Assembly (NCBI GenBank): GCA_003151985.1
Contig: PLZC01000055.1
Coordinates: forward strand, 11,220 to 45,365
Length of the DNA: 34,146 nucleotides
From: Acidobacteriaceae bacterium
Lineage (GTDB): Bacteria > Acidobacteriota > Terriglobia > Terriglobales > Acidobacteriaceae
Direction of reading: 5' to 3'
Part shown: piece by piece, positions 3,301 to 30,996 of the stretch
How the letters are laid out: each line of letters starts with the position of its first letter
How positions within the stretch are numbered: position 1 is the stretch's first letter
Notes under the pieces: model-generated
Databases searched by the model: none
What the model saw: the letters and a program-made list of their open reading frames with translations, nothing else
Told to the model about the DNA's origin: nothing
Made by a program: the position numbers and the translations under genes

Positions 3301-3329
3301 CACCCAGCTGTGATGACTAGCCGGCAGAG

Positions 3330-4589: not shown

Positions 4590-4643
4590 TTTTTCTCCTT
4601 GCCTGGGCCAGTCTTACCGAACGCTATGTCCCGCGGCCAGGGC

Positions 4644-8170: not shown

Positions 8171-8445
8171 TGGGTCGCTCCTTCCAGTCCTGTGCTGACA
8201 TCGCTCTTGCGATTTGTCAGGCGCATCACCGTGATCGCTCCCGGCTCAGGGCAGGCCATGAAACAGATTCCGCAACCCGAGCATCCTTTGCCGGCATAGA
8301 TTGCCGTTCGATAACCGGAATGATTCAGCCGATCGCTCAAGCGAATCACTTTTGGCGGGCATGCTTCCACGCACAGTCCGCAGCCCTTGCACTCATCCGT
8401 ATCTATCCGCAGCAAGCCTCGGTCCCGCTTTGCTTCGTCCATCAT
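8155..8445 (-). CDS. 2-oxoacid:ferredoxin oxidoreductase delta subunit, 2[4Fe-4S] ferredoxin
   Basis: A 96-residue ferredoxin-like subunit with two complete cluster motifs, [12 protein letters not shown] and [12 protein letters not shown], each followed by a short beta segment. It passes electrons from the TPP site to soluble ferredoxin. The frame extends upstream, but the start is placed at 8445 because AAGGGGAG lies 6 nt before a tandem ATG-ATG; this leaves 31 nt after the CoA-transferase stop. The 3' end overlaps the alpha gene. The short length matches VOR/KOR delta subunits, not a free ferredoxin of the operon type with extra domains. Confidence 0.9.
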
Positions 8446-8476
8446 GCTTCGCTCCCCTTCGCTAACTCGATCTTCC

Positions 8477-9793: not shown

Positions 9794-9893
9794 ATGCGAT
9801 TACCTCCGTAAGCATGCCCGCGCCTTGCGCATACAACAATGCCTTTGCGTACGGAGCTTGTTGCAAACGAACCACTTAGACTGAATCCGGGCG

Positions 9894-9904
9894 TCACAAA
9901 GTGA
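9894..9904. promoter_or_regulatory. Candidate operator palindrome TCAC-AAA-GTGA
   Basis: A perfect 4+3+4 inverted repeat about 100 nt upstream of the CoA-transferase start. It shares the CGTCAC string with the palindrome at 9973-9986. The regulator is unknown; it could be chance. Confidence 0.25.
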
Positions 9905-9910
9905 GCCTTT

Positions 9911-9942
9911 CGCGGCCTCTGGGAATTCTCTCAGAGCCCGCG
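9911..9942. other. GC-rich hairpin in divergent promoter region
   Basis: CGCGG + CTCTG pair with CAGAG + CCGCG across a 10-nt loop (one internal C-C mismatch). No T-tract follows on either strand. It may be an mRNA leader structure of the minus-strand operon. Confidence 0.3.
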
Positions 9943-9972
9943 CTAATCTACGCCCTGAAATAGGGAGTCGCT

Positions 9973-9986
9973 GTGACGCCCGTCAC
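9973..9986. promoter_or_regulatory. Candidate operator palindrome GTGACG-CC-CGTCAC
   Basis: A perfect 6-bp inverted repeat with a 2-nt spacer in the divergent intergenic region. The compact dyad looks like a dimeric regulator site. No regulator gene is adjacent. Confidence 0.3.
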
Positions 9987-10328
9987 CTTGCCGATTTGCT
10001 GTATTTCGTTACACAAACCGCCCCCTGCAACGCCGAGAGTGGCCAGCGGATTTGGCCGGACGCCAACTCCTGCCTCAACATGCGCTCACACCAAGTGATG
10101 GACAAGACAGATTGTTGCCCGAGCGAAGCCTTTCCTTCGGGGTTGCGCGTGCATCCCGGATGTATTTTGCAAGCATCTAAAAGCCAGACAGCGCTTCACA
10201 CCTGCAATGCGGCTCGTGGCTAATCGACGAGTTCGCCAATTTTGCGATATCTATTTAGCCGGTCACCAAAATTCTCGCTGCATAAAGACGATATAGGTCG
10301 CGAGAAACGATACTGCAAAGGGTTCCCT

Positions 10329-12983
<2,655 letters not shown>

Positions 12984-12986
12984 CTC

Positions 12987-14750
12987 GTGCACCAGTTCGA
13001 AGTGTGGGCTCCCTTTGCGAAAAGCATGGCGCTGGGAGTAAATGGCAGGTCGCTGCCGATGCAAGGACCGGATACGCAGGGCTGGTGGCGGCTTGAAGCA
13101 AGTGCGGTTGGGCCGGGGACAGATTACGGCTATTTTATTGACGCAGACGAGAAATGTTACCCGGACCCGCGGTCTCTGTGGCAGCCGAATGGTGTACACG
13201 GTCTATCGCGGGTATACGACCAGAATGCGTTTGCATGGACCGGCGGAAAGTTCAAGGCGCCACCGTTGTCGAGCGGCATTATTTATGAGTTGCATATCGG
13301 AACTTTCACCGCGCAAGGCACACTGGACGCAGCGATCGGCAAGCTCGATTACCTGGTCGACCTCGGTATAACTCACGTTGAGCTTATGCCAGTGGCGGCA
13401 TTTGCCGGCAACCATGGCTGGGGCTACGACGGAGTAGCACTTTATGCGGTGCATCAGCCTTATGGCGGTCCCGATGCGCTGAAGCGGTTTGTCAATGCGG
13501 CGCATGGAAAGGGGCTGTCTGTGTTGCTGGATGTGGTCTATAACCATTTCGGCCCGGTGGGAAATTACTCCGGAAAATACGGGCCCTACCTGGTCGACGC
13601 GCATCATACGCCGTGGGGAGGCGCGGTGAATCTTGAAGATGCAGGTTCGCACCAGGTGAGGCGATTCTTCTGTGACAACGCGCTGATGTGGATGCGTGAT
13701 TACCATATCGATGGATTGCGCCTGGACGCGGTGCATGCATTTGTCGACCGGTCCGCGATCCACTTCCTGGAACAACTCGCGTGCGAGGTGGAGACGTTAG
13801 AGGCGGCGTCAGGACGGCGACTCGTAGTGATTGCAGAGAGCGACCTTAACGATCCGCGGATTGTGACACCGCGCGAAGCCGGCGGGCTTGGCATGGATGC
13901 ACAGTGGAGCGACGACTTTCATCATGCGCTCTTTACCTTATTAAGTCCGGGGCCAGCGGAGGGATACTATGCAGACTTTGGCTCGCTTGCACAGTTAGCC
14001 AAAGCAATGGAGTCGACTTATGTATATGACGGGAGTTACTCAACCTATCGGCATCGCGTGCATGGCCGGCCGGCGGGAAGGCTGTCGCAACATCGGTTCC
14101 TGGGTTATATCCAAAACCATGACCAGGTGGGCAACAGGGCAAAGGGAGACAGGATCAGTTCGATTGCAGGGCTCGGGCGCGCGAAGATCGCAGCGGCGGT
14201 GGTGCTGATGAGCCCGTTTATTCCAATGGTCTTTCAGGGCGAAGAGTGGGCAGCTTCATCACCGTTCCAGTACTTTGCAGATCATGACGATCCGGAGATG
14301 GCTCGCTCGGTTTCAGAAGGACGAAAGAAGGAGTTATCAGCATTTGGGCGGGACCCTGCGTCGATACCGGACCCGGAGTGCAAGGAAACCTTTGAACGGT
14401 CGAGGCTGAAATGGGAAGAAGTGAGCCTGGGCGAACATCGCGAGATGCTGGCATGGTATCGGGAGCTAATAAGATTGCGACGATCCACCGCTTGGTTGAA
14501 TGATGGCGAACCGGGAAATACGAAAGTATTTTATGACCAACAAGAAAAGTGGTTCCGCATGGAGCGCGGAAGCATTTCGGTGATCTGCAACCTGGGGGAT
14601 GCCGAACACACATTCCGGGTACCCGAGGGCAGTCGGGCGCTGCTTGCTTCAAGCGAGGCGGTCTCCATGACGAATGAGTCAGTGACGCTAGTGCCGGACA
14701 CAATTGCAGTTCTAAATACTGACCCCATAATGATAAGTGCAGCAAGTTAG
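12987..14750 (+). CDS. treZ: Malto-oligosyltrehalose trehalohydrolase
   Basis: A 587-residue GH13 enzyme that cuts trehalose from the maltooligosyl-trehalose made by TreY. It has an N-terminal CBM48-like domain (FEVWAPFAKSMALGVNG), then IIYELHIGTF, HGWGYDGV, DVVYNHFGP, the nucleophile in IDGLRLDAVHAF (D247), the acid/base in VIAESDLNDP (E284), the transition-state Asp in YIQNHDQVGN (D379), and MVFQGEEWAASSPF. The start is GTG at 12987, with GGAGGGAG ending 8 nt before it, only 3 nt after the treY stop, so the pair is tightly coupled. It converges on the minus-strand treS group. Confidence 0.96.
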   Translation: MHQFEVWAPFAKSMALGVNGRSLPMQGPDTQGWWRLEASAVGPGTDYGYFIDADEKCYPDPRSLWQPNGVHGLSRVYDQNAFAWTGGKFKAPPLSSGIIYELHIGTFTAQGTLDAAIGKLDYLVDLGITHVELMPVAAFAGNHGWGYDGVALYAVHQPYGGPDALKRFVNAAHGKGLSVLLDVVYNHFGPVGNYSGKYGPYLVDAHHTPWGGAVNLEDAGSHQVRRFFCDNALMWMRDYHIDGLRLDAVHAFVDRSAIHFLEQLACEVETLEAASGRRLVVIAESDLNDPRIVTPREAGGLGMDAQWSDDFHHALFTLLSPGPAEGYYADFGSLAQLAKAMESTYVYDGSYSTYRHRVHGRPAGRLSQHRFLGYIQNHDQVGNRAKGDRISSIAGLGRAKIAAAVVLMSPFIPMVFQGEEWAASSPFQYFADHDDPEMARSVSEGRKKELSAFGRDPASIPDPECKETFERSRLKWEEVSLGEHREMLAWYRELIRLRRSTAWLNDGEPGNTKVFYDQQEKWFRMERGSISVICNLGDAEHTFRVPEGSRALLASSEAVSMTNESVTLVPDTIAVLNTDPIMISAAS

Positions 14751-14785
14751 CTCCGCTGTGTGGAGTCAGCAGGGCAGCAAGTTAG
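14739..14785. repeat. Short direct repeat at treZ 3' end
   Basis: GCAGCAAGTTAG occurs at 14739-14750 (including the treZ stop) and again at 14774-14785, 35 nt apart. Between the copies, CTCC and GGAG can pair around GCTGTGT. It looks like a small local duplication in the treZ tail. Confidence 0.45.
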
Positions 14786-14808
14786 ATGCGGCCATCTGAA
14801 CAGGGCCG

Positions 14809-15624
14809 TTAGAAGTGGCGAATAGACTCCTCTGGTGTAGGCGCGGCGGCACTATGCGGAGGAGTGGTGCGGTGGTCGCCGGTGCGTTCGACATTTCTTT
14901 CCAGCGAACGGCTGACCAAATCGCGTGAGCCAAGTCCCACGGCAAGAGCGAGAGTCAGTACGATGCCCCCGAATAAAATGCCAAATGCCAGCTCAACGAC
15001 GTTCCCTCCGACCTGGAGATGGTCGAGTACCATGGCGGCAGTAAGCACAAGCACGAGCCATTTGACGCCAAGCGAAAGGAACCGGGCGTATTGGAGCTGG
15101 GCGTTGACGGCTCCGATTAGTACCGAACGCGCCAGGAATCGAGCGATGATTGTTCCGGCGATGAGCAGCATGATGGCGCCCACGGCATGCGTCAGGTAGG
15201 GGAGCAGCGAGATAGGTAGCGCGGCACCCGTTGCATAGGATGCGTCGAAAGCCGAGACGCCGATGACTAATCCGAGCAGGACGCAGCCCCAGAAGGAAGT
15301 TCGCGCGATGATCTCAGTGGGAGAAGTTGGCGGTGTCCAGTCGACGTTGCCTCGATTGCGCGCGATGCGATCGTCAAACTTGATCCAGGTGAGTCCACGC
15401 CGCAACAGCGCGGAGATGGCCATGCCGATCAACGTAAATATGCCCAGGGCGACAAAGAAGGCAAGGATTCCCGGCAAGACCGCGATGAGCAGCGAGAGAA
15501 CCCTATAAAGCGACTGGTTGAGCGCATCGGACATATGGCGCAAGATCGAAGCGTTGTCGCTGTATGCGGGCGGCATGTTATCGTTTCGGATTCCCTGGAG
15601 TATCACGACGAGTAGGTTGTGCAT
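14809..15624 (-). CDS. Small MscS-related membrane protein (conserved TM-helix repeats)
   Basis: A 271-residue protein with several hydrophobic helices: VLSLLIAVLPGILAFFVALG, then WGCVLLGLVIGVSAF, THAVGAIMLLIAGTIIARFL, WLVLVLTAAMVLDHL, and a last one ending LALAVGLGSRDLVSRSLERN. The last block matches the conserved TM-helix repeat seen beside mechanosensitive channels, but the MscS beta domain does not follow; the C-terminus is short and Pro-rich. The start at 15624 has AAGGAG 8 nt upstream; an ATG at 15663 overlaps the preceding stop (ATGA) and is the alternative. It is downstream of treS-maltokinase and a glycosyltransferase-like gene, so an osmotic role is plausible but inferred. Confidence 0.75.
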   Translation of the reverse strand: MHNLLVVILQGIRNDNMPPAYSDNASILRHMSDALNQSLYRVLSLLIAVLPGILAFFVALGIFTLIGMAISALLRRGLTWIKFDDRIARNRGNVDWTPPTSPTEIIARTSFWGCVLLGLVIGVSAFDASYATGAALPISLLPYLTHAVGAIMLLIAGTIIARFLARSVLIGAVNAQLQYARFLSLGVKWLVLVLTAAMVLDHLQVGGNVVELAFGILFGGIVLTLALAVGLGSRDLVSRSLERNVERTGDHRTTPPHSAAAPTPEESIRHF

Positions 15625-15659
15625 CGGACTCACTCCTTGAATGACTCTATCGGCAGCGG

Positions 15660-16853
15660 TCATGAGTTAAAGCGATCTGGCCAGCGCCAGCGCGCGACGA
15701 GGTATGGTTTGTCAGCTTCGAAAGCAGCCGCAACTGCCTCGATATGTCGCTCGGAACTGGTACCTGAGGCTGTGATGTTAATGTGTCCGGCAACCCACGC
15801 AAGGTAAAGCGGTATCAGCGCGCCGAGCAGGTGACCTCGGTTTATGGTGCGGAGCCGGTAAGCGATGAGGAAGTCGTAGACAATGCGCGCCCAGAGGTTC
15901 TCCGGCATGCGGAACGCCGCGGCATCAACCAGAGAGAGCCGCTTAAGCCCGAGTAATGTGTTAGGCGGTAGAACGAGCGACCAGATTTCCAGAAGGTTTG
16001 TGTAAGCGAGCCGAAAGGCATCGATCATGGAAACGATATCGGAGGTGCCATCGGCAAGGGCCACCTCGGGAATGGGATAACGCGCAGGAGGCAGGCGGCG
16101 GGGACGCTGCCAAAATGCTGCCTTGGCTTCGATGTCGGCGAAGAGAGATCCCGTAACAAGCGCAAGGATTGCATTAATGTTCAATTCTGCCGGCGGCTGG
16201 GGCAGATCGCGCGGACCAACTGCGAATTCGTCGACGGTATATCCGGCTACCAAGGCCTCGCTTACGGGCCAGAGGAGCGCGTCTTCCTGATTGAGCGTGC
16301 TGAATCGCTGAGCGACGCCGGCAAGTCGCTCAGCCATGCGAAGCGAGAGACCGAGATCGATTCCCAAAGGAAAGCGCATGCGACACGCGAAAAGCGCGCG
16401 GGTAAGCGGATAGAGGATAGCGGAATTGACCAATGCGGCGTGAGGCGGCAAATCGTAGAGTGGCATCGCCAGATCCGCGGATCCGCCAAGTACCGCATTC
16501 GCGAGGTCGCACAGACCTTGCGAATTCAGGGAACCCGATTCAGGGCCAAGCATGACAATCCCGCGCGCGTCATTCTTTTGTGCAAGCTGATACGCATTGA
16601 TGAAATCAGCGGCAGTTATGCGCCAGGCGATATTTGTGGTTGGGAAGTTGACTACGCGAAGAGAGGGATGGGCCTCTGCAGCGAAGCCGTTGGGTGTGGC
16701 GATGAGAACTTCATCCGCTGGAAGGGAGAGCGTGAGACAGGCGAGGATACTCTCCAGTTGCTGCGGAGGCATTGCGGCGGCCACAACGAGCAGGCTGGCG
16801 CCGGAACGGAGTGAAGTGGGAGCGGTTTCTGAAACAGGATTTGTGGTCGCCAT
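15660..16853 (-). CDS. Glycosyltransferase-like protein, GT-A type, lacking an evident DXD
   Basis: A 397-residue protein that I recognise only by pattern. Residues ~20-175 resemble the GT-A fold of mannosylglycerate/glucosylglycerate-type synthases: an N-terminal Rossmann-like strand (LLVVAAAMP), a strand where the metal-binding DXD would be expected (GIVMLGPESGSLN, ~98-110), then LAMPLYDLPPH, and AILYPLTRALFACRMRFPLGIDLGLS, which resembles YPLxRALYGxRxRQPIGGDFGLS. The expected acidic DXD is absent, so it may be inactive, metal-independent or a different enzyme. It lies 75 nt after treS-maltokinase and overlaps or abuts the TM gene. The ATG at 16853 has only a weak ribosome site. The fold assignment is tentative; the open frame and operon position are firm. 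Confidence 0.6.
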   Translation of the reverse strand: MATTNPVSETAPTSLRSGASLLVVAAAMPPQQLESILACLTLSLPADEVLIATPNGFAAEAHPSLRVVNFPTTNIAWRITAADFINAYQLAQKNDARGIVMLGPESGSLNSQGLCDLANAVLGGSADLAMPLYDLPPHAALVNSAILYPLTRALFACRMRFPLGIDLGLSLRMAERLAGVAQRFSTLNQEDALLWPVSEALVAGYTVDEFAVGPRDLPQPPAELNINAILALVTGSLFADIEAKAAFWQRPRRLPPARYPIPEVALADGTSDIVSMIDAFRLAYTNLLEIWSLVLPPNTLLGLKRLSLVDAAAFRMPENLWARIVYDFLIAYRLRTINRGHLLGALIPLYLAWVAGHINITASGTSSERHIEAVAAAFEADKPYLVARWRWPDRFNS

Positions 16854-16928
16854 TGTCGCTCAGGGAAAACGGCCTTCCGCGACGAGCTACTTTTGCCAAT
16901 CGCAAACTGGCTTGAACCAGGCCGGTAC

Positions 16929-19900
16929 TTATAAGGATAGGATACCTGCAATCGGTATGGGAAGCCATTCGGGACGATTATTGAGTTCATAAAGCAGCTC
17001 GTAAAGGGCCTTTTCCAGCAGGTAGGCCTCAAGCAACTTCTGAGCCTGCTGCGGCAACGGCAACAGCACCGGATTGGCGGCGATGGTTTCGCGGTAGGCC
17101 GACAGGAATTCGGCGGAGGCAACATTCTGCCACTGACGGGCCCAGGCAGTGAGATTGTTTTTATCGGAATTGGGCGCATTGCCGTCGCGGCCGGCACGGA
17201 ATTGATTGAGCGCGGCATACGCCACGTAGGAGAACGAGCGGATCATGCCGGCCACGTCCTTCAATGGCGACTGCTTTCGGCGGCGCTCGGCAAGGGAACG
17301 CGCGGGTTCGCCTTCGAAATCGAGCAGGACAAAGTCGATCGGTGACTTGGAATCGGTTGAATCACGGCTAACGCAAAGGGTCTGACCCAGGTGGTAATCG
17401 CCGTGTATGCGGATGCGCTGCCCTCCTGACTTAAAGTCGGTGATGGCGCGGCTGCGGACAATGAGTTCAAGACGCCGCGAAAGGAGCAAGCCCGCCGCGT
17501 CCGAGGTCCAATCGTCGAATGTGGAGAGCGTCAATTTGAGAGCTTCAAGAGTGGAGGAGATTTGGGCCTCTATGCGACGGGCGTCGGCTTCGAGATCCTC
17601 CTGGGTGAATGGTTCGGCGTCGAATGCCGGGGCGTCGGCGGGGGTGCTAAGCGCCAGATGCATCTCGGCTGTGCGGCGACCGAGGAGCGCAGCGACTTCG
17701 AGCGAGAGACTGGCGGATTCCATTGCTTTTGACGGGGCCTGAGGCTCGTTGAGAAAGCTGGGTGCGGGTGCCTCGGGTGGAGGTGGAACGGTGGCGATCG
17801 AAGTGAAGAAGCCGGCCAGTTGCTCAAGGAACCATTGCCAGCCGTCGCCCTGGTTCGCAACCAGGCCCTGCAGCATGGCAACCGTGGTCTTTTCGCCCCC
17901 AGCCGGGGTAATGGAAACCTCCCCCAGGAAAGACGCAATGCGTGGGAAATGGGCGATTTCAGTGAGGAATCGACCGATTTCGACGTCAGGATTTTCGCCC
18001 GGCTCCAGCCGTCGGAAGAGCTTCAAAATCAGTTCCTTGCCGTAGATAATTGAAGTATTGGATTGCTCCGCGGAACCGATGCGCGAGGACAGACGGTGTG
18101 AGATGTGTCCGCCGGTGAACGCGATGGAAGCGCGGGCGTCGAGTCGTCCTCCGAGCGGGGTTGGATCGCCCGCGGAGGGAGACTCGCGCGGCTGCAGGCG
18201 CTGCAAGCCGGCCAAAAGCATGGTCGGAGCACCGGAGCGCGGAGGCGCTGCCGTCTGGCCTGGTTGTGCGGTGAGAGGTGCGGGGGCGATGGGCTGGGAG
18301 GCACTCACAGCGTTTTGCGCGGAGGCGGCAGGCACGGGGCCGGCATCCCCGCCAATAGCGGACTGGCCGAGGAGGGTTGAGACTTCTTGCGCCAGAGTGG
18401 CGGACAGGCCAAGCGTTGTGTTGCGTTCGATGAGAGCAAGCAATCCTTGGCGAAAATCCTCGCGCGTGGTAGCGTCGTGCAGGATGGCGGTTCCGACGGA
18501 TGAAGTGAGAGTCGTGAGGATGCTCTGCGGATTGTTGGCGGTAACTTCCCCAGCATCTGCGCCGGCACTCATTGCCAGGGGAAGCTGGTAGACATCCGGG
18601 GCGCCGTCCAGGTAGGTCACCTCGACGAAGAATAAAGCGGGGGAAATGGAACTGACTACTGAGGGATCAGCCGAATTGAAGTCAGTAGCGCCGGGATGGC
18701 TAATGGGAGAAAGATCAACCCAGTCGAGCACGCGTGCGGCTCGGATCTTTCGTGCCTTGGCTCCGAACCAGCGTTGGCTAAGCAGCCATGCGGGAAGCGC
18801 GGTCTCAATCTGTACCAATGCATGGCCACCGAACAGGCCGGCCCAGCCCTTGGTGAGCAGATCGAACGCTGCAACCGCGCTGCCGATGCTTTCGGTCGCA
18901 TCGGCGGCTTCCGGTTCAGGCTGCGGTTCCGGTTCAACGTCGGGGGCCTGTAACTCCAGCCAGAGGAAGGAGTAAGGCGCCAGGCTCAAGGAATAAGGGG
19001 CATCTGTAATGGCTGGAAAGGGAACGTAGCCGAGCATCTCAACCGGCTGCATCCCCGTAAACCCGATTAGATCGAGTGTGACGGGCTGGGCGAAGCGGCT
19101 TAAGTTTGCCACGCATAGTACCGTCTCGTGTGAGCCATCGCCGCGGTCGAGATCGCGCAGGTAGGCGAGGATTTTTCGGTTTACGGGATTCAAGAATGTC
19201 AGGGTTCCGCGGCCAAAGACCTGGAATAGCTTGCGTAGCGCGATCATGTTTCGGGTCCAGTGCAAGAGGCTGGACTGATCGCTGAGTTGAGCTTCAACAT
19301 TCACGACCTGGTAACCGTAGATGGGATCCATGACTACCGGAAAATAAAGCCGCGCGGGGTCGCACTTGGAGAAGCCGGCGTTACGGTCGGAAGTCCACTG
19401 CATGGGGGTACGGACACCGTTGCGGTCGCCAAGATAAATGTTATCGCCCATTCCGAGTTCGTCGCCGTAGTAGAGGATTGGGGTCCCGGGAAAACTGAGC
19501 AGGAGCGAGTTGAGTAACTCGATGCGGCGGCGGTTGTTATCGACCAAGGGCGCGAGCCGGCGTCGAATCCCCACATTGATGCGCATTCGCGGATCAGCCG
19601 AGTAAGCAAAATACATGTAATCGCGCTCGTCGTCTGTCACCATCTCAAGAGTAAGTTCGTCGTGATTGCGCAGGAACAGACCCCACTGGCAGTTATCCGG
19701 AATGGGTGGCGTCTGGGCCATGATGTCGGTTATCGGCAGGCGGTCTTCCTGGCGAAGTGCCATATAGATGCGGGGCATAAGTGGAAAATGAAACGCCATG
19801 TGACATTCGTCGCCATCGCCAAAATAAGGACGGACATCGGCAGGCCACTGGTTGGCTTCGGCCAGGATCAGCCGATTCGCGTAGCCGGCGTCAATTGCTG

Positions 19901-20606
19901 CGCGAAGCGCCTTGATGACGGAGTGCGACTCAGGCAGGTTTTCGCAGGATGTGCCGTCGCGTTCAAGCAGATAGGGAATGGCGTCCATGCGCAGCGCATC
20001 CACACCCATGTCGAGCCAGAAGCGCATGGCATTGAGAACCTCTTCGATGACCAGTGGGCTGTCGAAGTTGAGGTCCGGCTGGTGCGAAAAGAAGCGGTGC
20101 CAATAATAGGCCTTTGCGGTTTCGTCCCAGGTCCAGTTGGACTTCTCTGTGTCGGTGAAGATGATGCGGGCTTCCTTGTATAACTGGTCTGTCTGCGACC
20201 AGACATACATATTGCGCTGCGGTGAGCCTGGGGGAGCAAGGCGCGCGGCCTTGAACCACGGGTGTTGATCGCTGGTATGATTGATAACAAGTTCGATCAT
20301 AACTTGCATGTTGCGCTGGTGGGCGGCATCGAGGAAAGCCTTGAAGTCGCTCAGCGTACCATACGATGGGTTTACGTCGACATAGTTGGAGATGTCATAG
20401 CCGTCGTCGCGGAGGGGCGAAGGAAAAAAAGGCAAGAGCCAGATGCAGGTGATGCCGAGATCCTGGAGATAGTCAAGCCGCGAGAGGAGTCCGGGAAAGT
20501 CGCCGATGCCGTCGCCGTTCGAGTCGGAGAACGCGCGAACGTGGAGTTCGTAGATAATCGCGTCTTTGTACCATAAAGGATCGGTTGCGCTTGCCAGCTT
20601 TTTCAC
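16929..20606 (-). CDS. treS: Trehalose synthase - maltokinase fusion
   Basis: A 1225-residue fusion. Residues 1-~560 are a GH13 trehalose synthase interconverting trehalose and maltose: WYKDAIIYELHVRAF, VINHTSDQHPWF, nucleophile in VDALRMDAIPYL (D208), acid/base in LILAEANQWP (E250), and LFLRNHDELTLEM (D316). After a PEPQPEPEA linker, residues ~620-1225 are a maltokinase (maltose to maltose-1-phosphate): LSQRWFGAKARKI, IYGKELILKLFRRLEPGENP, and the kinase motifs HGDYHLGQ (H1068) and LLDFEGEP. An Ala/Pro-rich stretch of ~60 residues interrupts the kinase N-lobe. The start is GTG at 20606 with GGAG 9 nt upstream. Maltose-1-phosphate normally feeds GlgE glucan synthesis; no glgE is in the window. 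Confidence 0.95.
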   Translation of the reverse strand: MKKLASATDPLWYKDAIIYELHVRAFSDSNGDGIGDFPGLLSRLDYLQDLGITCIWLLPFFPSPLRDDGYDISNYVDVNPSYGTLSDFKAFLDAAHQRNMQVMIELVINHTSDQHPWFKAARLAPPGSPQRNMYVWSQTDQLYKEARIIFTDTEKSNWTWDETAKAYYWHRFFSHQPDLNFDSPLVIEEVLNAMRFWLDMGVDALRMDAIPYLLERDGTSCENLPESHSVIKALRAAIDAGYANRLILAEANQWPADVRPYFGDGDECHMAFHFPLMPRIYMALRQEDRLPITDIMAQTPPIPDNCQWGLFLRNHDELTLEMVTDDERDYMYFAYSADPRMRINVGIRRRLAPLVDNNRRRIELLNSLLLSFPGTPILYYGDELGMGDNIYLGDRNGVRTPMQWTSDRNAGFSKCDPARLYFPVVMDPIYGYQVVNVEAQLSDQSSLLHWTRNMIALRKLFQVFGRGTLTFLNPVNRKILAYLRDLDRGDGSHETVLCVANLSRFAQPVTLDLIGFTGMQPVEMLGYVPFPAITDAPYSLSLAPYSFLWLELQAPDVEPEPQPEPEAADATESIGSAVAAFDLLTKGWAGLFGGHALVQIETALPAWLLSQRWFGAKARKIRAARVLDWVDLSPISHPGATDFNSADPSVVSSISPALFFVEVTYLDGAPDVYQLPLAMSAGADAGEVTANNPQSILTTLTSSVGTAILHDATTREDFRQGLLALIERNTTLGLSATLAQEVSTLLGQSAIGGDAGPVPAASAQNAVSASQPIAPAPLTAQPGQTAAPPRSGAPTMLLAGLQRLQPRESPSAGDPTPLGGRLDARASIAFTGGHISHRLSSRIGSAEQSNTSIIYGKELILKLFRRLEPGENPDVEIGRFLTEIAHFPRIASFLGEVSITPAGGEKTTVAMLQGLVANQGDGWQWFLEQLAGFFTSIATVPPPPEAPAPSFLNEPQAPSKAMESASLSLEVAALLGRRTAEMHLALSTPADAPAFDAEPFTQEDLEADARRIEAQISSTLEALKLTLSTFDDWTSDAAGLLLSRRLELIVRSRAITDFKSGGQRIRIHGDYHLGQTLCVSRDSTDSKSPIDFVLLDFEGEPARSLAERRRKQSPLKDVAGMIRSFSYVAYAALNQFRAGRDGNAPNSDKNNLTAWARQWQNVASAEFLSAYRETIAANPVLLPLPQQAQKLLEAYLLEKALYELLYELNNRPEWLPIPIAGILSL

Positions 20607-24414: not shown

Positions 24415-25113
24415 TTAACCCTGAAACCTGTATCCCATGCCGGGGACGGTGATGATCATCTCGGGCTTTTTAGGTAACATCTCTAACTTCTGACGCAGAC
24501 TGGCGACATGCATATCCACGGTGCGAGTGAAGGTGCCGGCCTTCTGTCCCCAGACTTGCTCCAGCAGTTCATCGCGCGAAAGCGTAACTCCCTGGTGTTC
24601 CGCGAAGTAGCGTAATAAGTGGAATTCTCGCGCAGTTAGATTGACAGGCTTGCCGTCTTGAGTCACTTTGGTTTTTCGAATATCTATAACTATGGAACCG
24701 AACTGGTAGATGGGTTGACCCCCGGAACGGGCAAGATCCGTCTTGGCCGGCGCACGCCTTAGAAGGGCCTCGATCCGCGCCATAAGTTCGAGCGTATCGA
24801 ATGGTTTTGTGACATAGTCGTCAGCGCCCAGCTTTAGACCGACAACCTTATCGACAGTTTGGCCGAGAGAGGTAAGAAGGAGAATCGGCGTGCCCAATCC
24901 GGCGCGTCGAAGGTCCGTGCAAAGATCAAGCCCGCTGATATGGGGCAGCATGATGTCGAGAATGATGAGATCGAATGGGAGCCGCAACGCCTTTTCCCCG
25001 CCGGCTTTCCCATCCATCGCGACATCAATAACATACCCTTCGCTGCGCAAGCGGTCTCCGAGCGTCGTGCATAACTCTTCTTCGTCTTCGACAATTAAGA
25101 TATGTTCGTTCAT
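24415..25113 (-). CDS. OmpR-family response regulator
   Basis: A 232-residue regulator. The receiver domain has the acidic pocket IVEDEEE, phosphoacceptor in LIILDIMLPH (D53), LLTSLG, and YVTKPF (K103). The C-terminal winged helix (~135-230) has LTAREFHLLRYFAEHQG, SRDELLEQVWG, RTVDMHVASLRQKL and VPGMGYRF. Its ATG overlaps the kinase stop by four bases (ATGA) with no separate ribosome site, so it is translationally coupled to the kinase. It is the last gene of the porin/binding-protein/kinase cassette, and it has no counterpart in the duplicated upstream copy, so one regulator may serve both halves. Confidence 0.93.
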   Translation of the reverse strand: MNEHILIVEDEEELCTTLGDRLRSEGYVIDVAMDGKAGGEKALRLPFDLIILDIMLPHISGLDLCTDLRRAGLGTPILLLTSLGQTVDKVVGLKLGADDYVTKPFDTLELMARIEALLRRAPAKTDLARSGGQPIYQFGSIVIDIRKTKVTQDGKPVNLTAREFHLLRYFAEHQGVTLSRDELLEQVWGQKAGTFTRTVDMHVASLRQKLEMLPKKPEMIITVPGMGYRFQG

Positions 25114-26612
25114 GGCTTTGACAAACTCGAGGGCCCGGAAACGGGCACGGCCATCTGCATGTCTTCTCCTTTGGCAAACTGTAGATGCAAAGTGAAAATA
25201 CTCCCCAAGGACAGTTCGCTGACAACAGAAATTCGTCCACCCATCGATTCAGCGAGTCTCTTGGCCAGGGACAGCCCCAGGCCGGTTCCATGAAACTGCG
25301 CAGCATGCACGCGCGGGCTGCGGTAGAAAGGTTCGAAGATGCGAACGAGGTCGGAGGAATCGATTCCGATACCGCGATCGGCTACCGAAATTTGCAATTC
25401 CTGGCCGGACCCACGCTCCAATGGCACAGTAAACGCGCGTAGGACTATCAGTCGGTCATCGCCGCCGTACTTGACGGCATTCCCGATCAAGTTTTGCAAA
25501 CACTGCGAGATTCCCGAGATATCGCCCATGACAAGAGGTAGATCCGGCTCAATGTAGAGTTCAAGGACAAATCCCGCCCCATGGATCAGCCCTTCCGCAC
25601 CGGCCACCACCGAATCAATAATCGGTGAAATCTCCAGCGGTTGCAAGATGTATCGGTTCTCGCGATCTTCAGTGGATGCGAAAAGCAGGATCTGATCGAC
25701 CAAATCGCCCATGCTGCGACTTTGATGTTGAATTATTCTGCCATATTTTCGCAGGGCGGTCTCTCCCTGGACGACGCCGTCGGCAAGGTTATCCGCCGCC
25801 AACCGCAACACGGCAAGGGGCGTGCGCAACTCGTGTGAAACGGAAGCGACGAATTCCATTTGCAACTTGGCTAGTTGAATAGCGCTCAGCATGCGGCTTC
25901 TTTGGATGGTCCAAACCGCGATGCCGGACAGGAGGAAGGTAAAGGTGAAGATTCCGATGAGCCGGATGGAGGAGCGGCGCGAGGAGGCAGCCAGGTTGGC
26001 CTGACGGCGGGAAGCATCTTCGCCATAGAGGCGTTTGACCTCGTCGAGGTCCTGCCGAACGTGTTCAAATGCCGGCACGCCAGCGGAAAGATCGAAGCTC
26101 ACGGCCTCTTTCGTGCTCCCCTCCAGAATGGAAGCAAGAACTTCATCTCGAATTGCGAGGTAATTTGTCCAATCGGCAGAAAGGCGATTGGCAAGAGCAT
26201 TCTCTGCGGGCTGCTTCGCCTGATGTGCATATGCGACGATTCCGTCTTTCACTCGCTGGTCCGCGTCGCGAGTCTGGTCAGCGTATTCGACCTGGAGGTT
26301 GCTGTCATTTGTGGTCAAGGCGTGAAGGGTTGAAAGGCGTGTCTCCTGGGCATCGTATTGCAGCTCACCAATCCGCTGCAGTCCATTTACCGAGCCTGTG
26401 TACATTTCCCGCGCCTCGCCATTCGCAGCCTTCAGGTCGCGAATAACGAAGACGCCAATGACCGCAACGACACAGCAGACCGTGAACAGCAAGAAACTGG
26501 CGCTGTGGCGCGAAGTGACGCTCAACAGGCGATCCAGCACCGGAACCGGCTTCATGGAGTGCGAGTTCAAAGCGACTTCTGGCTGCTCTTTCACCTTATT
26601 CGTCTGCCTCAT
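25110..26612 (-). CDS. Sensor histidine kinase with 4HB-like periplasmic domain
   Basis: A 500-residue kinase counted from the ATG at 26612, chosen because the duplicated fragment at 28689-29078 starts at the matching place; the frame is open to 26657. TM1 ~38-58 (FLLFTVCCVVAVIGVFVI), an extracytoplasmic helical region ~59-215 beginning YTGSVNGLQRIGELQYDAQE like the four-helix-bundle chemoreceptor domain, TM2 ~216-236, H-box VSHELRTPL (H260), N-box LIGNAVKYGG, G1 DRGIGID, F-box IFEPFYRS, and G2 HGTGLGLSLA. The complete motif set indicates an active kinase. Its start lies inside the end of the binding-protein gene (17-nt overlap) and its end overlaps the regulator, suggesting that the binding protein may be its ligand receptor (inference). 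Confidence 0.92.
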   Translation of the reverse strand: MRQTNKVKEQPEVALNSHSMKPVPVLDRLLSVTSRHSASFLLFTVCCVVAVIGVFVIRDLKAANGEAREMYTGSVNGLQRIGELQYDAQETRLSTLHALTTNDSNLQVEYADQTRDADQRVKDGIVAYAHQAKQPAENALANRLSADWTNYLAIRDEVLASILEGSTKEAVSFDLSAGVPAFEHVRQDLDEVKRLYGEDASRRQANLAASSRRSSIRLIGIFTFTFLLSGIAVWTIQRSRMLSAIQLAKLQMEFVASVSHELRTPLAVLRLAADNLADGVVQGETALRKYGRIIQHQSRSMGDLVDQILLFASTEDRENRYILQPLEISPIIDSVVAGAEGLIHGAGFVLELYIEPDLPLVMGDISGISQCLQNLIGNAVKYGGDDRLIVLRAFTVPLERGSGQELQISVADRGIGIDSSDLVRIFEPFYRSPRVHAAQFHGTGLGLSLAKRLAESMGGRISVVSELSLGSIFTLHLQFAKGEDMQMAVPVSGPSSLSKP

Positions 26613-27135
26613 CCTGCACTCGGAGTTTATACCCCTTATCGACGGGCATACTTTCATCGATGCGCAACATCTTTACGGAGGCATCCACATTGCTGAGCCG
26701 CAAGTAGCCGATAGCTCCCGGAACGTTGAAAATGAACTTGCGGACACCGACAGGCGTCGAGAGGATTTGGGGGGACACCAGGATCTCACCAGTAAACAGG
26801 CCGTGAAGGAAATGCGTCTTGAACTGACTTTCATTCATGTCGTAGATATCTCGCAGGACGGTCTTGCGTTCCAGCTCCCCAGGGTCGCGCATGACGAGGG
26901 TGATCCGCCTGCCGTCGGCCCAGTGGCTACGGCTACCCAGAAAGATGCTGCGCAATTCAAGGGATGAGAGTTTGTCGACCGGATTCGAACGATTGACAAC
27001 AATGACAAGTGGTTCAGATGGCGTGGTCTGTTGAGCCAAGGGTGGGGCCGGTCGAGCGCCTGGCACACCCGTAGCGTCCGTCTGCAGCCAGACAGCTAGT
27101 GCTACGACGATTACCCAAGTAGTCAGGCGCCGCAT
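26596..27135 (-). CDS. Small PstS-like periplasmic substrate-binding protein
   Basis: A 179-residue exported protein with an N-terminal signal (RRLTTWVIVVALAVWLQ). The mature part has the pattern of stand-alone phosphate-binding-like domains: VIVVNRSNPVDKLSSLELRS, IFLGSRSHWADGRRITLVMR, FKTHFLHGLFTGE and VPGAIGYLR. It is about half the length of ABC-transporter PstS proteins, and no permease or ATPase lies nearby. It is 16 nt downstream of the porin, and its 3' end contains the start of the histidine kinase. A paralogue of the same length lies at 29053-29592. The ligand could be phosphate or another oxyanion; it may act as a sensory accessory to the kinase (inference). Confidence 0.82.
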   Translation of the reverse strand: MRRLTTWVIVVALAVWLQTDATGVPGARPAPPLAQQTTPSEPLVIVVNRSNPVDKLSSLELRSIFLGSRSHWADGRRITLVMRDPGELERKTVLRDIYDMNESQFKTHFLHGLFTGEILVSPQILSTPVGVRKFIFNVPGAIGYLRLSNVDASVKMLRIDESMPVDKGYKLRVQDEADE

Positions 27136-27151
27136 GATGAATGAATTCCCG

Positions 27152-28549
27152 TCAGAAGGTGAAGCCTAGCTGCATTGTGAGCCCAGTGGTTCCGTGCTGG
27201 CTGCGCAAGAAAGTGTAGTTGTATTGAAATTTGAGGGCTACAGACTCGCTGGCATCGTAGCGCAAGCCGGCCAGCGGGCCGTGCCGGAGGGCCACGTCAG
27301 TAAATACTGGCTCACGATTGGAGACATTCACGTACTCGTAGCGAAAATAGGGACGGTACGAACCAAATTGCCGGGAGAGCTGGGTATAAAACCCCGGGAT
27401 ATTGAAGGAGGCGGTGCTATTCAGGGGAGTGTGGCGATCGAGCAAGGCTTCATTAAGCCACTCGAACTTTGGACGAATGAGTATCGCATGAGCGGCAACG
27501 ATGGTCTCCTCGATTCTCGGGTTGTTGGCAGGAGCAAGAATATCCCGATAAACGGAAAGGCCGGTTTGGAAACCACGCAGAGCTTCAGGCCGGGCGAACA
27601 GCGCCACGTTATAGGCTTTGTGGTTCTCATCGTCGACCTCGTTATGCACCGGTTCCTCCTGCAATGGGGATCGCGACTCACGTCCGTTACCAACTTCTGC
27701 AACATAATGCAATCCTAGTTGTCCGGAGGGAATTTGGCCGGAAGCGGACACGCCAACCATGTGGATGGGAAGAATTCCTCCGTGATCCTCGAAGTCAAAT
27801 AAGAAAGGCCTGCCTGTGGTTGTCTGCAACCAGGTGCTGTGATGATACGCAGTGTTGTAGTAGCCGATCGCAGTGTGTCCACGACCTGCGGATATATTCA
27901 GCAAATCGTTGAAGGAATACTGGAGAAGATAGCGCTCGAGGTCGACGCCGAAGGAATTCTCCGCCGGTTGCGGCTGGCCGTAGTAGCTGTTTGGTCCGGC
28001 TTCAAACACAATTTCGCTAAGAAACTTGAACTTGTCGGAGACGTCCGAGGTGACGAACAGATCGAGTTGCCCCAGCGAAAAGGAAGTTGCATCGCCCTTC
28101 ATGGTGTCGCCATGGAGGGAAACGTCTCCGAATCCGCGAATGCGCAAAAGGGTCTTGCTCAGGTCCATTCTGTCGGCCATGGCATTGTCGGAAGAGGTTG
28201 GCTCGGACTCCGGGGCGGCGGCAGGAGGCATCTGGGATGCGCCCGATGCCTGGACGGCGGGACCGGCCGTCGGCGGGGTCGTTTCGGCCTTCACCGCTTT
28301 TTGACTTCGCGAAGCTAGAGCAGGCGTGGGATCGGCTGCGCCAGTCTGGGGCCGTTCGGTCTCCAGTTGCTTGACCCTGGCTTCGAGCTGGTCGATTCTT
28401 TTAAGCAAGAGTTGCAGCGTTTCCTTGTCGACCCCCGGCCCATCCCCGGCCTGTTGCGCATAGAGGGCAGAGCCGCACAGAAGGGCCAGGAAGGCATGGG
28501 CCGCAAATCGGCCGCCCAGCCTCTTGAAGATCAAATGGTATGGACGCAT
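27152..28549 (-). CDS. Outer-membrane porin with N-terminal coiled coil (copy A)
   Basis: A 465-residue exported protein. Signal peptide (HAFLALLCGSALYAQQ), then a heptad-like coiled coil LKRIDQLEARVKQLETERP (~46-66), an Ala/Pro-rich linker to ~125, and a beta-barrel from about LRIRGFGDVSLHGD to the end. The barrel closes with the BAM-type terminal pattern MQLGFTF ending in Phe. The coiled coil suggests a trimer, as in OprP/OprO-like or SlpA-like porins (inference). AGGAGGGAG lies just before the ATG. It is the first gene of the downstream cassette and is paralogous to 29611-30996. Confidence 0.85.
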   Translation of the reverse strand: MRPYHLIFKRLGGRFAAHAFLALLCGSALYAQQAGDGPGVDKETLQLLLKRIDQLEARVKQLETERPQTGAADPTPALASRSQKAVKAETTPPTAGPAVQASGASQMPPAAAPESEPTSSDNAMADRMDLSKTLLRIRGFGDVSLHGDTMKGDATSFSLGQLDLFVTSDVSDKFKFLSEIVFEAGPNSYYGQPQPAENSFGVDLERYLLQYSFNDLLNISAGRGHTAIGYYNTAYHHSTWLQTTTGRPFLFDFEDHGGILPIHMVGVSASGQIPSGQLGLHYVAEVGNGRESRSPLQEEPVHNEVDDENHKAYNVALFARPEALRGFQTGLSVYRDILAPANNPRIEETIVAAHAILIRPKFEWLNEALLDRHTPLNSTASFNIPGFYTQLSRQFGSYRPYFRYEYVNVSNREPVFTDVALRHGPLAGLRYDASESVALKFQYNYTFLRSQHGTTGLTMQLGFTF

Positions 28550-28688: not shown

Positions 28689-29078
28689 TCACTGTCTACG
28701 TTGTCCGCAATCAACTAACTTCCGCAGACAACAGGCAGCACTCGGCAGCTTTGCGGATTGGAGCGCGTCGGAAGAACTGAAACGGATTGCAAGCCGTGTT
28801 TCCCGGGCATCGAACTGCAACTGACCAATCCGCTGCAGGCCATTTACCGAGCCTGTGTACATTTCCTGTGCCTCGGCATTCGCCGCCTTCAGATCGCGAA
28901 TAACAAAGACACCAATAACCGGAACGACCGAACAGACCACGGATAGCAAAAAAATGGCGCTGTGGCGCGAAATGGCGCTCAGCAGCTGGTCCAGCGGCGG
29001 GACTGGATTGATGGAGCGCGAATTCAAAGCGGATTTTAGTTTTTCTCTCGCCTTAATTGGCCGCCTGGTCCTGCACAT
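28689..29078 (-). pseudogene. Truncated histidine kinase fragment
   Basis: An open frame of 129 codons whose first ~96 residues match the intact kinase at 25110-26612 (shared stretches include VIGVFVIRDLKAAN, EMYTGSVNGLQRIG and DARETRL), covering the cytoplasmic tail, TM1 and the first periplasmic helix. Similarity stops near 28791 and the last ~33 residues are unrelated read-through. The rest of the periplasmic domain, TM2, the HisKA and ATPase domains and the following regulator are missing. It overlaps the binding-protein gene upstream (26 nt), as in the intact copy. Most likely a remnant of unequal recombination; a small membrane-anchored protein is possible. Confidence 0.85.
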
Positions 29079-29592
29079 GTAACTTGTATCTCTTATCGGC
29101 AGGCATCAGTTCGTCTATACGCACCACTTTTACGGAATCATCAACGTCGCTCTGGCGCAGGTAGCCAATGGCTCCCGGAACATTGAAGATGAACTTGCGA
29201 ACACCGGCAGGGGTAGAGAGCGTCTTTGGTGACACGAGGATCTCCCCCGTGTACAGGCCGTGGATGAAATGAGTTTTAAACTGACTTTCATTCATTCCGC
29301 ACACCTCCCGTAAGATGACCTTGCGCTCGTGTTCCCCCGGGTCCCGCATGACGAGTGTAATTCGCCTGCCGTTTGGCCAGTAGCCGCGGTTACCCAGAAA
29401 AATGCTGCGCAGCTCGGCGAAGGAGAGTTTTTCCACCGGGTTGGACCGATTCATGACAATAACGAGTGGTTCAGATGGCGTGCTTTGTTGCGCCAAATGC
29501 GAGTTGGAGTAAGCGACGGGCGCCCGAGCGGCGTCCGACAGGGGCCCCGCAGCCAGTATAACGACGATCGTGCAAGTCACCAGGCGCCGCAT
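29053..29592 (-). CDS. Small PstS-like periplasmic substrate-binding protein (paralogue)
   Basis: A 179-residue exported protein, paralogous to 26596-27135 and identical in length from the chosen ATG at 29592; the frame also allows a TTG at 29601. Signal: RRLVTCTIVVILAAG. Core: VIVMNRSNPVEKLSFAELRS, IFLGNRGYWPNGRRITLVMR, QFKTHFIHGLYTGEILVS and VPGAIGYLR. It is 18 nt after its porin. Strong conservation of the binding core against a more variable signal and linker suggests both copies are under selection. Its kinase partner is truncated, so it may signal through the downstream intact kinase. Confidence 0.82.
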   Translation of the reverse strand: MRRLVTCTIVVILAAGPLSDAARAPVAYSNSHLAQQSTPSEPLVIVMNRSNPVEKLSFAELRSIFLGNRGYWPNGRRITLVMRDPGEHERKVILREVCGMNESQFKTHFIHGLYTGEILVSPKTLSTPAGVRKFIFNVPGAIGYLRQSDVDDSVKVVRIDELMPADKRYKLHVQDQAAN

Positions 29593-29610: not shown

Positions 29611-30996
29611 CTAGAAAGTGAACCCAAGTTGCAGAGTGAGGCTATTAATGTTCGGCCGATTGCGTAGCAAAAGGTAGTCGTATTGGAACTTCAGTGCCAC
29701 AAATTCGCTGGCATCGAAACGCAAGCCTGCCACCGGCCCATGCCGCAAGCCCACATCCGGGAACACCGGGTTACGCTGGGAAACATTCACGTACTCATAG
29801 CGGAAATAGGGCCGGTAGAGGCCCCATTGGTTTGAGACTTGGGAATAGAAGCCGGGAGTATTCGTAGTGGAGCTTCCGATCGGCGTCAGGCGATCGAGCA
29901 CGGCTTCACTTAACCATTCGTACTTTGGACGGATGAGAATGGCGTGACCGGCAAGGATCGACTCACCGATTCTGGGTGCCTTGTCGGGAGCGAGCACGTC
30001 GCGATAAAACGAGAAGCCGGCCTGGAAACCCGGGACAGCTTCGGGTTTTGCGAACAGGGCCAGGTTAAAGGCCTTGTGAGTCTTGTCGTCAACTACATTT
30101 TGAACCGGCACTTGATTCAGCGGGTCTCTCGAGGCGCGCCCATTGCCTAATTCAGCAACGTAGTGCAGTCCCAGCTGTCCGGCAGGGAGGCGTCCTGCGG
30201 CAGAGACGCCAATCATGTGGATTGGAAGGATTCCTCCACGATCTTCAAAGTCGTAGATGAACGGTCTCCTTGTGGTTGTTTGCATCCATGCGCTGTGATG
30301 ATAAGCCGTGTTGTAGTAGCCGATGGCCAGGTGTCCCTTGCCTGCCGATATATTGAAATAGTCGTTGTAGGAGTATTGCAGGAGATAGCGTTCCACATCC
30401 GTCGTAATCTGGTTCTCGGTTCCTTTCGCATGCCCGTACACATCCTCCGGGCCGCCCTCAAACACAATCTCGCTGAGGAATCTGAAGTTTTCCGAGACGT
30501 CGGAGGTCACAAACAGATCAAGCTGTCCGAGCGAAAAGGAGGTGGTGTCGCCCTTTCCGGTGTCGCCATGGAGATCAACGTCTCCGAATCCGCGAATGCG
30601 CAAAAGGGTCTTGCTGAGGTCCATTCTGTCGGCCATGCCATTGTCGGATGGCGGTTGGTCGGACTCAGGGGCGGCGGCAGAAGGCATTTTGGGGGAACCC
30701 GATGCCTGAGCTGCGGGGCTGGCCGGAGGCGGGGTCGTTTCCGCCGTCATCGCCGTCTGGCTCGCAGGAGCGGGAGCGGAGTTGGCGGCGCCAGTTTGCG
30801 GCCGCTCGGCCTCCAGTTGCCTGACCCTGGATTCAAGCTGGTCAATTCTAGTCAGCAGGAGCTGCAGCGTTGCTTTGTCGACCGTTTGTCCGTCACCAGC
30901 CTGTTGGGCATAGAGGGCAGAGCCACACAGAACAGCCAGGAAGCCTAAGGCCGCTAATCGGCCTCCCCACTTGAAAATTACATGGTATGGACGCAT
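29611..30996 (-). CDS. Outer-membrane porin with N-terminal coiled coil (copy B)
   Basis: A 461-residue paralogue of the porin at 27152-28549. The start at 30996 matches that paralogue (MRPYHVIFKW against MRPYHLIFKR) and has AGGAGG 8 nt upstream; the frame continues upstream to a TTG at 31131. Signal peptide FLAVLCGSALYAQQ, coiled coil LLTRIDQLESRVRQLEAERP, Ala/Pro-rich linker, then a barrel opening LRIRGFGDVDLHGD and closing with LQLGFTF. Barrel strands are highly similar between the copies while loops differ, for example QPQPAENSFG against HAKGTENQIT. Surface-loop divergence after duplication suggests altered permeability or phage/antigen escape (inference). Confidence 0.85.
   Translation of the reverse strand: MRPYHVIFKWGGRLAALGFLAVLCGSALYAQQAGDGQTVDKATLQLLLTRIDQLESRVRQLEAERPQTGAANSAPAPASQTAMTAETTPPPASPAAQASGSPKMPSAAAPESDQPPSDNGMADRMDLSKTLLRIRGFGDVDLHGDTGKGDTTSFSLGQLDLFVTSDVSENFRFLSEIVFEGGPEDVYGHAKGTENQITTDVERYLLQYSYNDYFNISAGKGHLAIGYYNTAYHHSAWMQTTTRRPFIYDFEDRGGILPIHMIGVSAAGRLPAGQLGLHYVAELGNGRASRDPLNQVPVQNVVDDKTHKAFNLALFAKPEAVPGFQAGFSFYRDVLAPDKAPRIGESILAGHAILIRPKYEWLSEAVLDRLTPIGSSTTNTPGFYSQVSNQWGLYRPYFRYEYVNVSQRNPVFPDVGLRHGPVAGLRFDASEFVALKFQYDYLLLRNRPNINSLTLQLGFTF

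Follow-up and report, generated by a model that had tools for sequence, protein, structure and literature searches.

Organisation of the locus

The window analysed here is a 34,146-nucleotide stretch of an Acidobacteriaceae bacterium genome (contig PLZC01000055.1), and its minus strand carries a four-gene locus encoding a porin, a small PstS-like periplasmic protein (hereafter the binding protein), a sensor histidine kinase and a response regulator. The porin gene (27152..28549) codes for 465 amino acids (aa), has no Pfam match and was recognised by the Foldseek likeness of its model to the trimeric porins OmpU, OmpC and OprP. It is followed by the gene for the single-lobe PstS-like protein (26596..27135; 179 aa, with a folded part at about residues 41–173), which was assigned from Pfam, sequence and a predicted model. 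The kinase (25110..26612; 500 aa) has, by reading, two transmembrane segments flanking a four-helix-bundle (4HB) ectodomain; its Pfam domains are 4HB_MCP_1, HisKA and HATPase_c, and HAMP is not listed. Its start is the ATG at 26612, and the mechanical list of open reading frames (ORFs) begins the kinase ORF at 26657. The last gene (24415..25113; 232 aa) encodes an OmpR/PhoB-type regulator with Response_reg and Trans_reg_C domains (Pfam).

An earlier sequence-only reading of this DNA had described four co-directional genes, and this layout was confirmed from the sequence: 16 nucleotides (nt) separate the porin and binding-protein genes, while the binding-protein and kinase genes overlap by 17 nt and the kinase and regulator genes by 4 nt. 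The combination of HisKA and HATPase_c with Response_reg and Trans_reg_C places the kinase and the regulator as an OmpR/PhoB-type pair, and the PhoR–PhoB equivalog cut-offs were reached neither by the regulator (183.2 of 296.2, PhoB) nor by the kinase (154.8 of 334.2, PhoR). Among 17 window proteins encoded between 10242 and 33986 (those at 1–10241 were unscanned), Pfam detected no ATP-binding cassette (ABC) permease, and for these 17 proteins the earlier claim that no such permease lies nearby holds. A BPD_transp_1 search of the organism's own genome, which is 73% complete, gave eight matches, none of them on this contig; ABC ATPases were not searched genome-wide.

Conservation of the gene order

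A binding-protein scan of species genomes yielded 38 named loci (compared loci are labelled L###). A porin gene was found within one gene upstream, on the same strand, in all 38, being fragmented in three (L094, L101 and L102) and separated from the binding protein by one gene in L110 and L112. The complete order of porin, binding protein, histidine kinase and response regulator was present in 19 of the 38 loci, counting L088, in which the kinase is spread over two ORFs and the contig ends within the regulator, and the gene set is thus a conserved unit. Seven loci carry another receptor instead: PAS-HATPase kinases in L110 and L112, hybrid kinases in L111, L116 and L117 (the last located 572 nt away), a methyl-accepting chemotaxis protein (MCP) in L113 and a GGDEF-EAL protein in L115. 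At three further loci the contig ends downstream, with L094 still showing the start of a kinase.

The reverse comparison started from the kinase. Searching 200 family genomes with the kinase sensor domain returned 11 matches, 10 of which adjoin a binding-protein match (two of these ten being the window's own kinase and its remnant in an upstream copy, see below), and the sole exception was a 24%-identical protein of 819 aa. Kinase genes standing without the binding protein, which would have spoken against the sequence-only reading, are not the usual arrangement among these matches, and conserved adjacency of binding-protein and kinase genes, the mark of binding-protein-activated two-component systems, is found here. 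The evolutionary distances of binding protein, porin, ectodomain, kinase core and regulator also correlate (r 0.71–0.88 over 18 cassettes). Porin, one-lobe PstS derivative, the kinase bearing the periplasmic four-helix ectodomain, and OmpR-type regulator are thus co-inherited, and their association exceeds what chance would give.

The binding protein as a predicted single lobe of PstS

At 179 aa, the binding protein has the half size relative to PstS that had been noted earlier, and this size corresponds to one lobe. Its score against PBP_like_2 (PF12849) lies just below the cut-off (25.2 bits, cut-off 27), and against the PstS family TIGR02136 it reaches 21.6 of the required 206.6. The sequence match covers residues 74–191 of the 265 in 4exl, that is, the second lobe of PstS; the lobe borders are those we take to apply to this structure. 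The model is confident, with blocks within 41–170 above 90 in predicted local distance difference test (pLDDT) and a single confident domain at about 41–173. The best superposition placed model residues 37–175 on 4exl 104–235 (Z 18.4, root-mean-square deviation (rmsd) 1.6 Å, 122 residues), some structural matches spanned 29–179 over longer chain ranges at an rmsd of 3.5–4.4, and the next matches after PstS were LysR effector domains with Z near 10. As modelled, the protein is lobe 2 of PstS alone, without lobe 1, and the two-lobe architecture with a ligand between the lobes is not seen in the model of the 179-aa chain. The lobe 2 fold, with its PGAI segment and IF-G---W motif, is shared with the PstS/PBP_like_2 proteins 4exl, 1twy and 4gd5, whereas these transporters differ from the window protein in having lobe 1, the Ser-Gly-Thr loop and an adjacent permease.

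The residues that we presume to be the phosphate ligands in PstS, an arginine and the Ser-Gly-Thr loop, were compared in 39 close and 23 wider relatives. The column aligned with the arginine holds L in 16, M in 14, R in 8 and W in 1 of the close relatives. The anion loop is replaced by x-x-Glu, with the glutamate present in 36 of the 39 close relatives and 11 of the 23 wider ones. Other positions are strictly kept: N51, W72 and P139-G140-A141 are invariant in all 39 close relatives, and in the wider set N51 recurs in 17 of 23 and W72 in 19 of 23, with PGA 139–141 common but not invariant. Judged from the model, the protein retains the fold and lacks the anion loop as well as the partner lobe that would close on it.

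This bears on the idea of a phosphate or oxyanion sensor, in which the porin would admit a phosphate-like anion, the PstS-like protein would bind it and the kinase would read it. PstS is indeed the closest fold, the window protein retains the PstS-aligned arginine as R83, as 8 of the 39 close and 11 of the 23 wider relatives also do, and oxyanion precedents are described in the available text on AioX-AioS-AioR (PMC5908839) and on PstS-CtpL (PMC4926252). Lobe 1 is absent, however, the arginine column is mostly L or M, the Ser-Gly-Thr loop has given way to x-x-Glu, and the scores for PBP_like_2, TIGR02136, PhoB and PhoR all fall below their cut-offs. Since lobe 1 and the loop are missing, PstS-style phosphate capture is unlikely, and the earlier proposal that the protein captures its ligand in the manner of PstS did not survive the comparison. 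The phosphate reading is weakened, to the point where we regard it as quite improbable, and the ligand is unlikely to be phosphate bound the way PstS binds it. Public records often label such small proteins 'phosphate ABC transporter substrate-binding protein', a name that implies transport and phosphate, while the evidence instead favours signalling and not PstS-type phosphate binding.

Occurrence in the phylum and exchange of the receptor

Among 297 genomes of the phylum, 41 binding-protein matches were found, two of which are the window's own, and all 39 others were examined. A barrel-sized ORF with an aromatic C-terminal residue lay directly upstream at 26 of these 39 places, compared with 4 of 250 control genes drawn from these loci, the controls being anchored at the ORF start and the binding proteins at the start of the hidden Markov model match. 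More than four transmembrane-like segments in the directly downstream ORF (at least 250 aa, within 650 nt) were seen outside the window's own genome only at L068, which encodes a full-length PstS with a seven-transmembrane ORF directly downstream. On this measure, a candidate permease gene beside the binding-protein gene, the other arrangement that would have spoken against the sequence-only reading, was seen directly downstream at this one place in 39. A set of twenty further family loci gave a porin in 13 of 19, L144 having been dropped. L144 (600 aa) had been considered as a porin–binding protein fusion, and was treated as a frameshift, since the sequence that joins the two parts, at the end of the porin, is out of frame; it was scanned in its unmended form.

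The receptors downstream of the binding protein are varied. The 14 found at the phylum places comprise hybrid or HisKA kinases (L037, L041, L047, L057, L064 and L071), HisKA_3 kinases (L052 and L060), MCPs (L036, L058 and L063), a SpoIIE phosphatase (L038), an adenylate/guanylate cyclase (L042) and a Ser/Thr kinase (L039), and the twenty further family loci add three MCPs, a SpoIIE protein, a hybrid kinase and two HisKA kinases; the contig of one of these had been counted before. In these assignments the MCP labels of L058, L063, L146 and L153 derive from motifs only, and the hybrid or HisKA labels of L037, L041, L047, L057, L064, L071, L111, L116 and L117 from phmmer comparison with the window kinase and regulator together with motifs; L115 was called GGDEF-EAL from a motif and the reading of alignment A5, and the kinase of L110 from its alignment with the Pfam-tested L112. 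Under a stricter motif rule, a receptor was counted at 8 of the 39 phylum places against 7 of 224 control genes. In all, the receptor classes beside the pair include histidine and hybrid kinases, chemoreceptors, cyclic di-GMP enzymes, SpoIIE phosphatases, a nucleotide cyclase and Ser/Thr kinases. Over the receptor-bearing loci, the output class changed at least 12 times on a quick tree, which has no bootstrap, contains long branches (L071, L057, L171 and L047), excludes L144 and includes both records of the contigs that, judged by equal length, occur in two collections (L036/L113, L064/L117, L082/L149 and L086/L147). The porin and the half-sized protein are the steadier partnership, and the receptor is exchangeable.

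The periplasmic part of several receptors is nevertheless kept. In alignment A5, the ectodomain motif QETRR--LYALTT-DSN-Q is recognisable in HisKA, PAS-HATPase and hybrid kinases and in the GGDEF-EAL protein, and a later stretch, RDEVLASILEGS, is recognisable more weakly across the same classes. This ectodomain is common to the HisKA kinases, L110/L112, L111/L116 and L115, each in a porin–binding protein locus, while the cytoplasmic parts differ in kind. Retention of a periplasmic domain under changing outputs supports, at the level of sequence, a shared periplasmic partner for these receptors. The MCP of L036 also has a 4HB domain (Pfam); no Pfam 4HB match was obtained in the ectodomains of the SpoIIE, cyclase and L145 MCP proteins.

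Plain co-expression could account for the operon if the porin and a periplasmic solute chaperone formed an uptake pair transcribed with its own regulator, with no contact between binding protein and receptor. The many pairs that lack a receptor gene directly downstream would fit such an arrangement. Against it, more than four transmembrane-like segments occur downstream only beside the full-length PstS of L068 (neighbours farther away being mostly unannotated), the kinase ectodomain hardly occurs without the binding protein in the family, and receptors with no DNA-binding output (MCP, SpoIIE and cyclase) also fill the slot. We consider this explanation very unlikely.

The porin and its possible role

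The N-terminus of the porin is a hydrophobic helix, presumably a signal segment. In the model, which has a pLDDT of 72, this is followed by a coiled coil (about 42–65), a disordered Pro/Ala-rich linker (about 67–132) and a β-barrel (about 135–465) whose last residue is F. Foldseek matched this model to trimeric porins, with OmpU and OmpC ranking above OprP (2o4v, rank 17, template modelling scores 0.50/0.56). No Pfam family was matched at an E-value of 0.1 by either of the two porins in the window, and PF07396 (Porin_O_P) was not among their matches.

The constancy of the porin raises the possibility of a sensor of outer-membrane or porin state, in which the one-lobe protein would bind the porin coiled coil or an unassembled barrel and report porin supply or assembly to the receptor. 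Such a role would agree with the porin being a steadier partner than any single receptor class, with the coiled coil and long linker modelled ahead of the barrel, and with the loss of the anion loop from a protein in which N51, W72 and PGA 139–141 are invariant in the 39 close relatives. Chemoreceptor, phosphatase and cyclase outputs, on the other hand, seem better suited to the sensing of solutes than to porin quality control, and this explanation appears unlikely to us.

Occurrence outside the Acidobacteriota

The porin and one-lobe pair spans Acidobacteriota, two Verrucomicrobiota assemblies, and plasmids of Beta- and Gammaproteobacteria. The two assemblies, L110 and L112, are named Limisphaerales and Pedosphaera, both of which we take to be Verrucomicrobiota, and have the order porin, SCO-like gene, binding protein, kinase. 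Their SCO-like gene (L110 1409–2107, L112 5273–5869) encodes a thioredoxin fold with a CQGVC motif by sequence reading and may indicate that the cue is a metal or a redox signal.

On plasmids, 18 places were inspected, others, among them two Listeria matches and further Pseudoalteromonas, Vibrio and Pseudomonas records, being left out; the labels of L078, L167, L168 and L169 follow the record annotation. A Caballeronia plasmid carries a porin-size gene, the binding protein and an EAL protein, plasmids of Ideonella and Massilia carry a barrel-size gene, the binding protein, an MCP and a diguanylate cyclase, and a Comamonadaceae plasmid carries a porin-size gene, the binding protein and a GGDEF protein. 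The MCP is convergent to the porin and binding-protein genes in Pseudoalteromonas CF6-2, divergent and ahead of them in P. xiamenensis, and precedes them on Pseudomonas aeruginosa plasmids. The reversed order, binding protein and then porin-size gene, was found in two Alteromonas loci, in a second P. xiamenensis locus and, from ORFs only with no gene table, in Photobacterium and Vibrio.

Proposed mechanism and comparison with known systems

With modest confidence, we read the locus as a porin-linked three-component sensing cassette, in which a periplasmic adaptor feeds a four-helix receptor through contacts that we infer; the model of the sequence-only reading is borne out in part. In such a cassette, the porin would admit, or itself present, a cue; the one-lobe protein would read this cue in the periplasm and dock on the four-helix ectodomain of the kinase, by analogy with GltB-GtrS, AioX-AioS and PstS-CtpL; and the kinase would pass the signal to the regulator. 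Since a single lobe allows no Venus-flytrap closure within one molecule, ligand recognition would need a partner surface, whether on the kinase ectodomain, on the porin or on a second copy; alternatively, the protein would be purely an adaptor.

Parts of this arrangement are known from other bacteria, and according to the available text of a 2024 paper, many kinases activated via binding proteins are encoded next to that binding protein (PMC11113362). The glucose-sensing system of Pseudomonas aeruginosa, GltB-GtrS-GltR with OprB/GltFGK, likewise unites a porin, a binding protein, a kinase and a regulator in one circuit, and GltB binds the GtrS ectodomain with a dissociation constant (KD) of 0.1 µM and is required for signalling (available part of PMC7927077). 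GltB, however, belongs to a complete ABC importer encoded with it, while the window protein consists of a single lobe and has no importer as a neighbour, and the glucose system is split over two operons, gltBFGK-oprB and glk-gtrS-gltR (PMC7927077, same part). The arsenic oxyanion sensor AioX-AioS-AioR and its ArxX/ArrX relatives likewise cluster a binding protein, a kinase and a regulator, and the binding protein signals; AioX is bilobal and PhnD-like, and a porin goes unmentioned in the main text of that paper (PMC5908839). In phosphate chemotaxis, a transmembrane receptor likewise receives its signal through PstS, which binds the CtpL ectodomain 1:1 with a KD of 3.7 µM; this PstS has its full length, the CtpL ectodomain does not form a four-helix bundle according to the paper, and the available text mentions no porin partner (PMC4926252). 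DbfQ-DbfRS of Vibrio cholerae, in which a small periplasmic protein encoded beside a two-component system is said to regulate it, is likened to the cassette by description only (available part of PMC12714742). The bilobal ligand-binding protein of the GltB-GtrS/AioXSR kind is not matched by the window protein as modelled. No description of a porin with a single-lobe front end was found in titles and abstract starts of the open-licence PubMed Central literature, in agreement with the sequence-only reading, which knew of no named system with this exact set, and GltB-GtrS-GltR with OprB and AioXSR are close relatives. Unusual features here are the half-sized protein, the steady presence of a porin partner and how many receptor classes are served.

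The recurrence of the pair beside many sensor kinds in distant bacteria suggests an overlooked, interchangeable sensing front end, and this wider porin and half-protein arrangement is the more interesting finding. Tentatively, the porin and half-PstS could form a general, swappable front end of Gram-negative bacteria that serves most receptor classes and whose site is completed with the receptor or the porin, such that the cell would sense what its own pore admits; we offer this as a possibility about which we are doubtful. If the pair were such a common front end, it would offer an immediate hypothesis on what many orphan receptors take as input, and, if true, a test of how one binding-protein lobe signals without flytrap closure.

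Several observations weigh against the sensing cassette. A porin of the kind described was missing at 13 of the 39 phylum places (L038, L045, L048, L049, L050, L053, L054, L060, L066, L068, L069, L072 and L073; L060 lies near a contig end), a receptor was found downstream at only 14 of the 39, and 9 of the 38 named loci have none directly downstream. As porin–binding protein pairs often lack a receptor in this position, the pair may serve a separate function. Among another 20 family loci, hand-picked from weaker matches, only 6 have a porin, and the 14 without one all fall in a porin-less clade of 21 rows with a Shimodaira–Hasegawa-like approximate likelihood ratio test (SH-aLRT) support of 99. 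The partial correlation of distances between binding protein and ectodomain (0.22, 18 cassettes) is not above that between binding protein and kinase core (0.27), and species history alone may explain the correlated distances. The retained arginine R83 and its counterparts in 8 of the 39 close and 11 of the 23 wider relatives point the same way, as do records outside the phylum: two Salinivibrio matches lie inside a longer protein with no porin alongside, the annotation upstream in Bsw20308 shows no porin, the upstream gene in Saccharobesus lacks an aromatic last residue and no receptor follows, and the Caballeronia plasmid (L078) has ABC-transporter genes about 3.7 kb beyond, on the other strand. 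Finally, a search for direct repeats ahead of the porin gene, over 17 named loci and both window copies (L091 and L114, in which no start was found, were left out), gave no excess at 11 nt, and autoregulation is therefore unsupported. A repeat period of 10 stood out, being equalled in 1 of 60 shuffles, but 16 periods had been tried and it is not trusted.

The upstream tandem copy

Upstream of the locus, also on the minus strand, lies a second, incomplete copy. It consists of a porin (29611..30996) 72% identical to the first, a single-lobe PstS-like protein (29053..29592) 71% identical to the first, with which it pairs in the tree, and a kinase remnant, a 129-codon ORF (28689..29078) in which about 93 residues of the kinase N-terminus are followed by unrelated sequence. 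The remnant is 70% identical to kinase residues 3–95, that is, the N-terminus and the start of the ectodomain, and neither a kinase core nor a regulator is found before the next porin. The sequence-only reading had argued that the coupling of binding protein to kinase matters from its being kept in both copies, and this argument fails because the upstream kinase is reduced to an N-terminal remnant. The two window binding proteins are sisters (SH-aLRT 95) within a set of six rows, the rest of which carry the complete cassette, and from this position the truncated copy resembles a duplication specific to the lineage. By eye, a junction stretch of about 100 nt matches neither paralogue, which speaks against a simple collapse, though a misassembly behind the truncated kinase is conceivable.

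Further observations

In several members of the porin-less clade (L045, L163, L178, L183, L185, L186 and L194), a gene of about 500 aa follows that of the binding protein, with tetratricopeptide repeats in the two that were scanned, L045 and L163, and this following gene suggests another role for the clade.

Ser/Thr kinases, which are common in the phylum Acidobacteriota, were often located near porin pairs that lack a downstream receptor. They were found in 18 of 133 loci, all 18 with a porin, a frequency that has no control and counts the single contig of L082 and L149 twice. One of them (L149, 7505–10318) carries a PD40 propeller and lies upstream of a porin–binding protein pair without a histidine kinase. 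Close homologues of this kinase have the same position and strand at pairs that likewise lack a histidine kinase in L035, L097, L102, L105 and L106, whereas those in L107 and L108 are on the other strand. In L040, L043, L158, L159 and L160, a convergent Ser/Thr kinase gene on the opposite strand ends at most about 35 nt from the binding-protein gene.

A single-lobe protein in L062 (5764–6453), downstream of a barrel-sized gene, has a C-terminal extension that, by sequence reading, resembles the C-terminal domain of TonB. On two Alteromonas plasmids (L166 and L173), the pair, in the order binding protein and then porin-sized gene, adjoins type IV CRISPR csf genes. Elsewhere in the window, positions 10242–20606 hold alpha-amylase-family genes, one of them with a maltokinase N-cap (16929–20606), which look like what we presume to be a trehalose/glycogen cluster.

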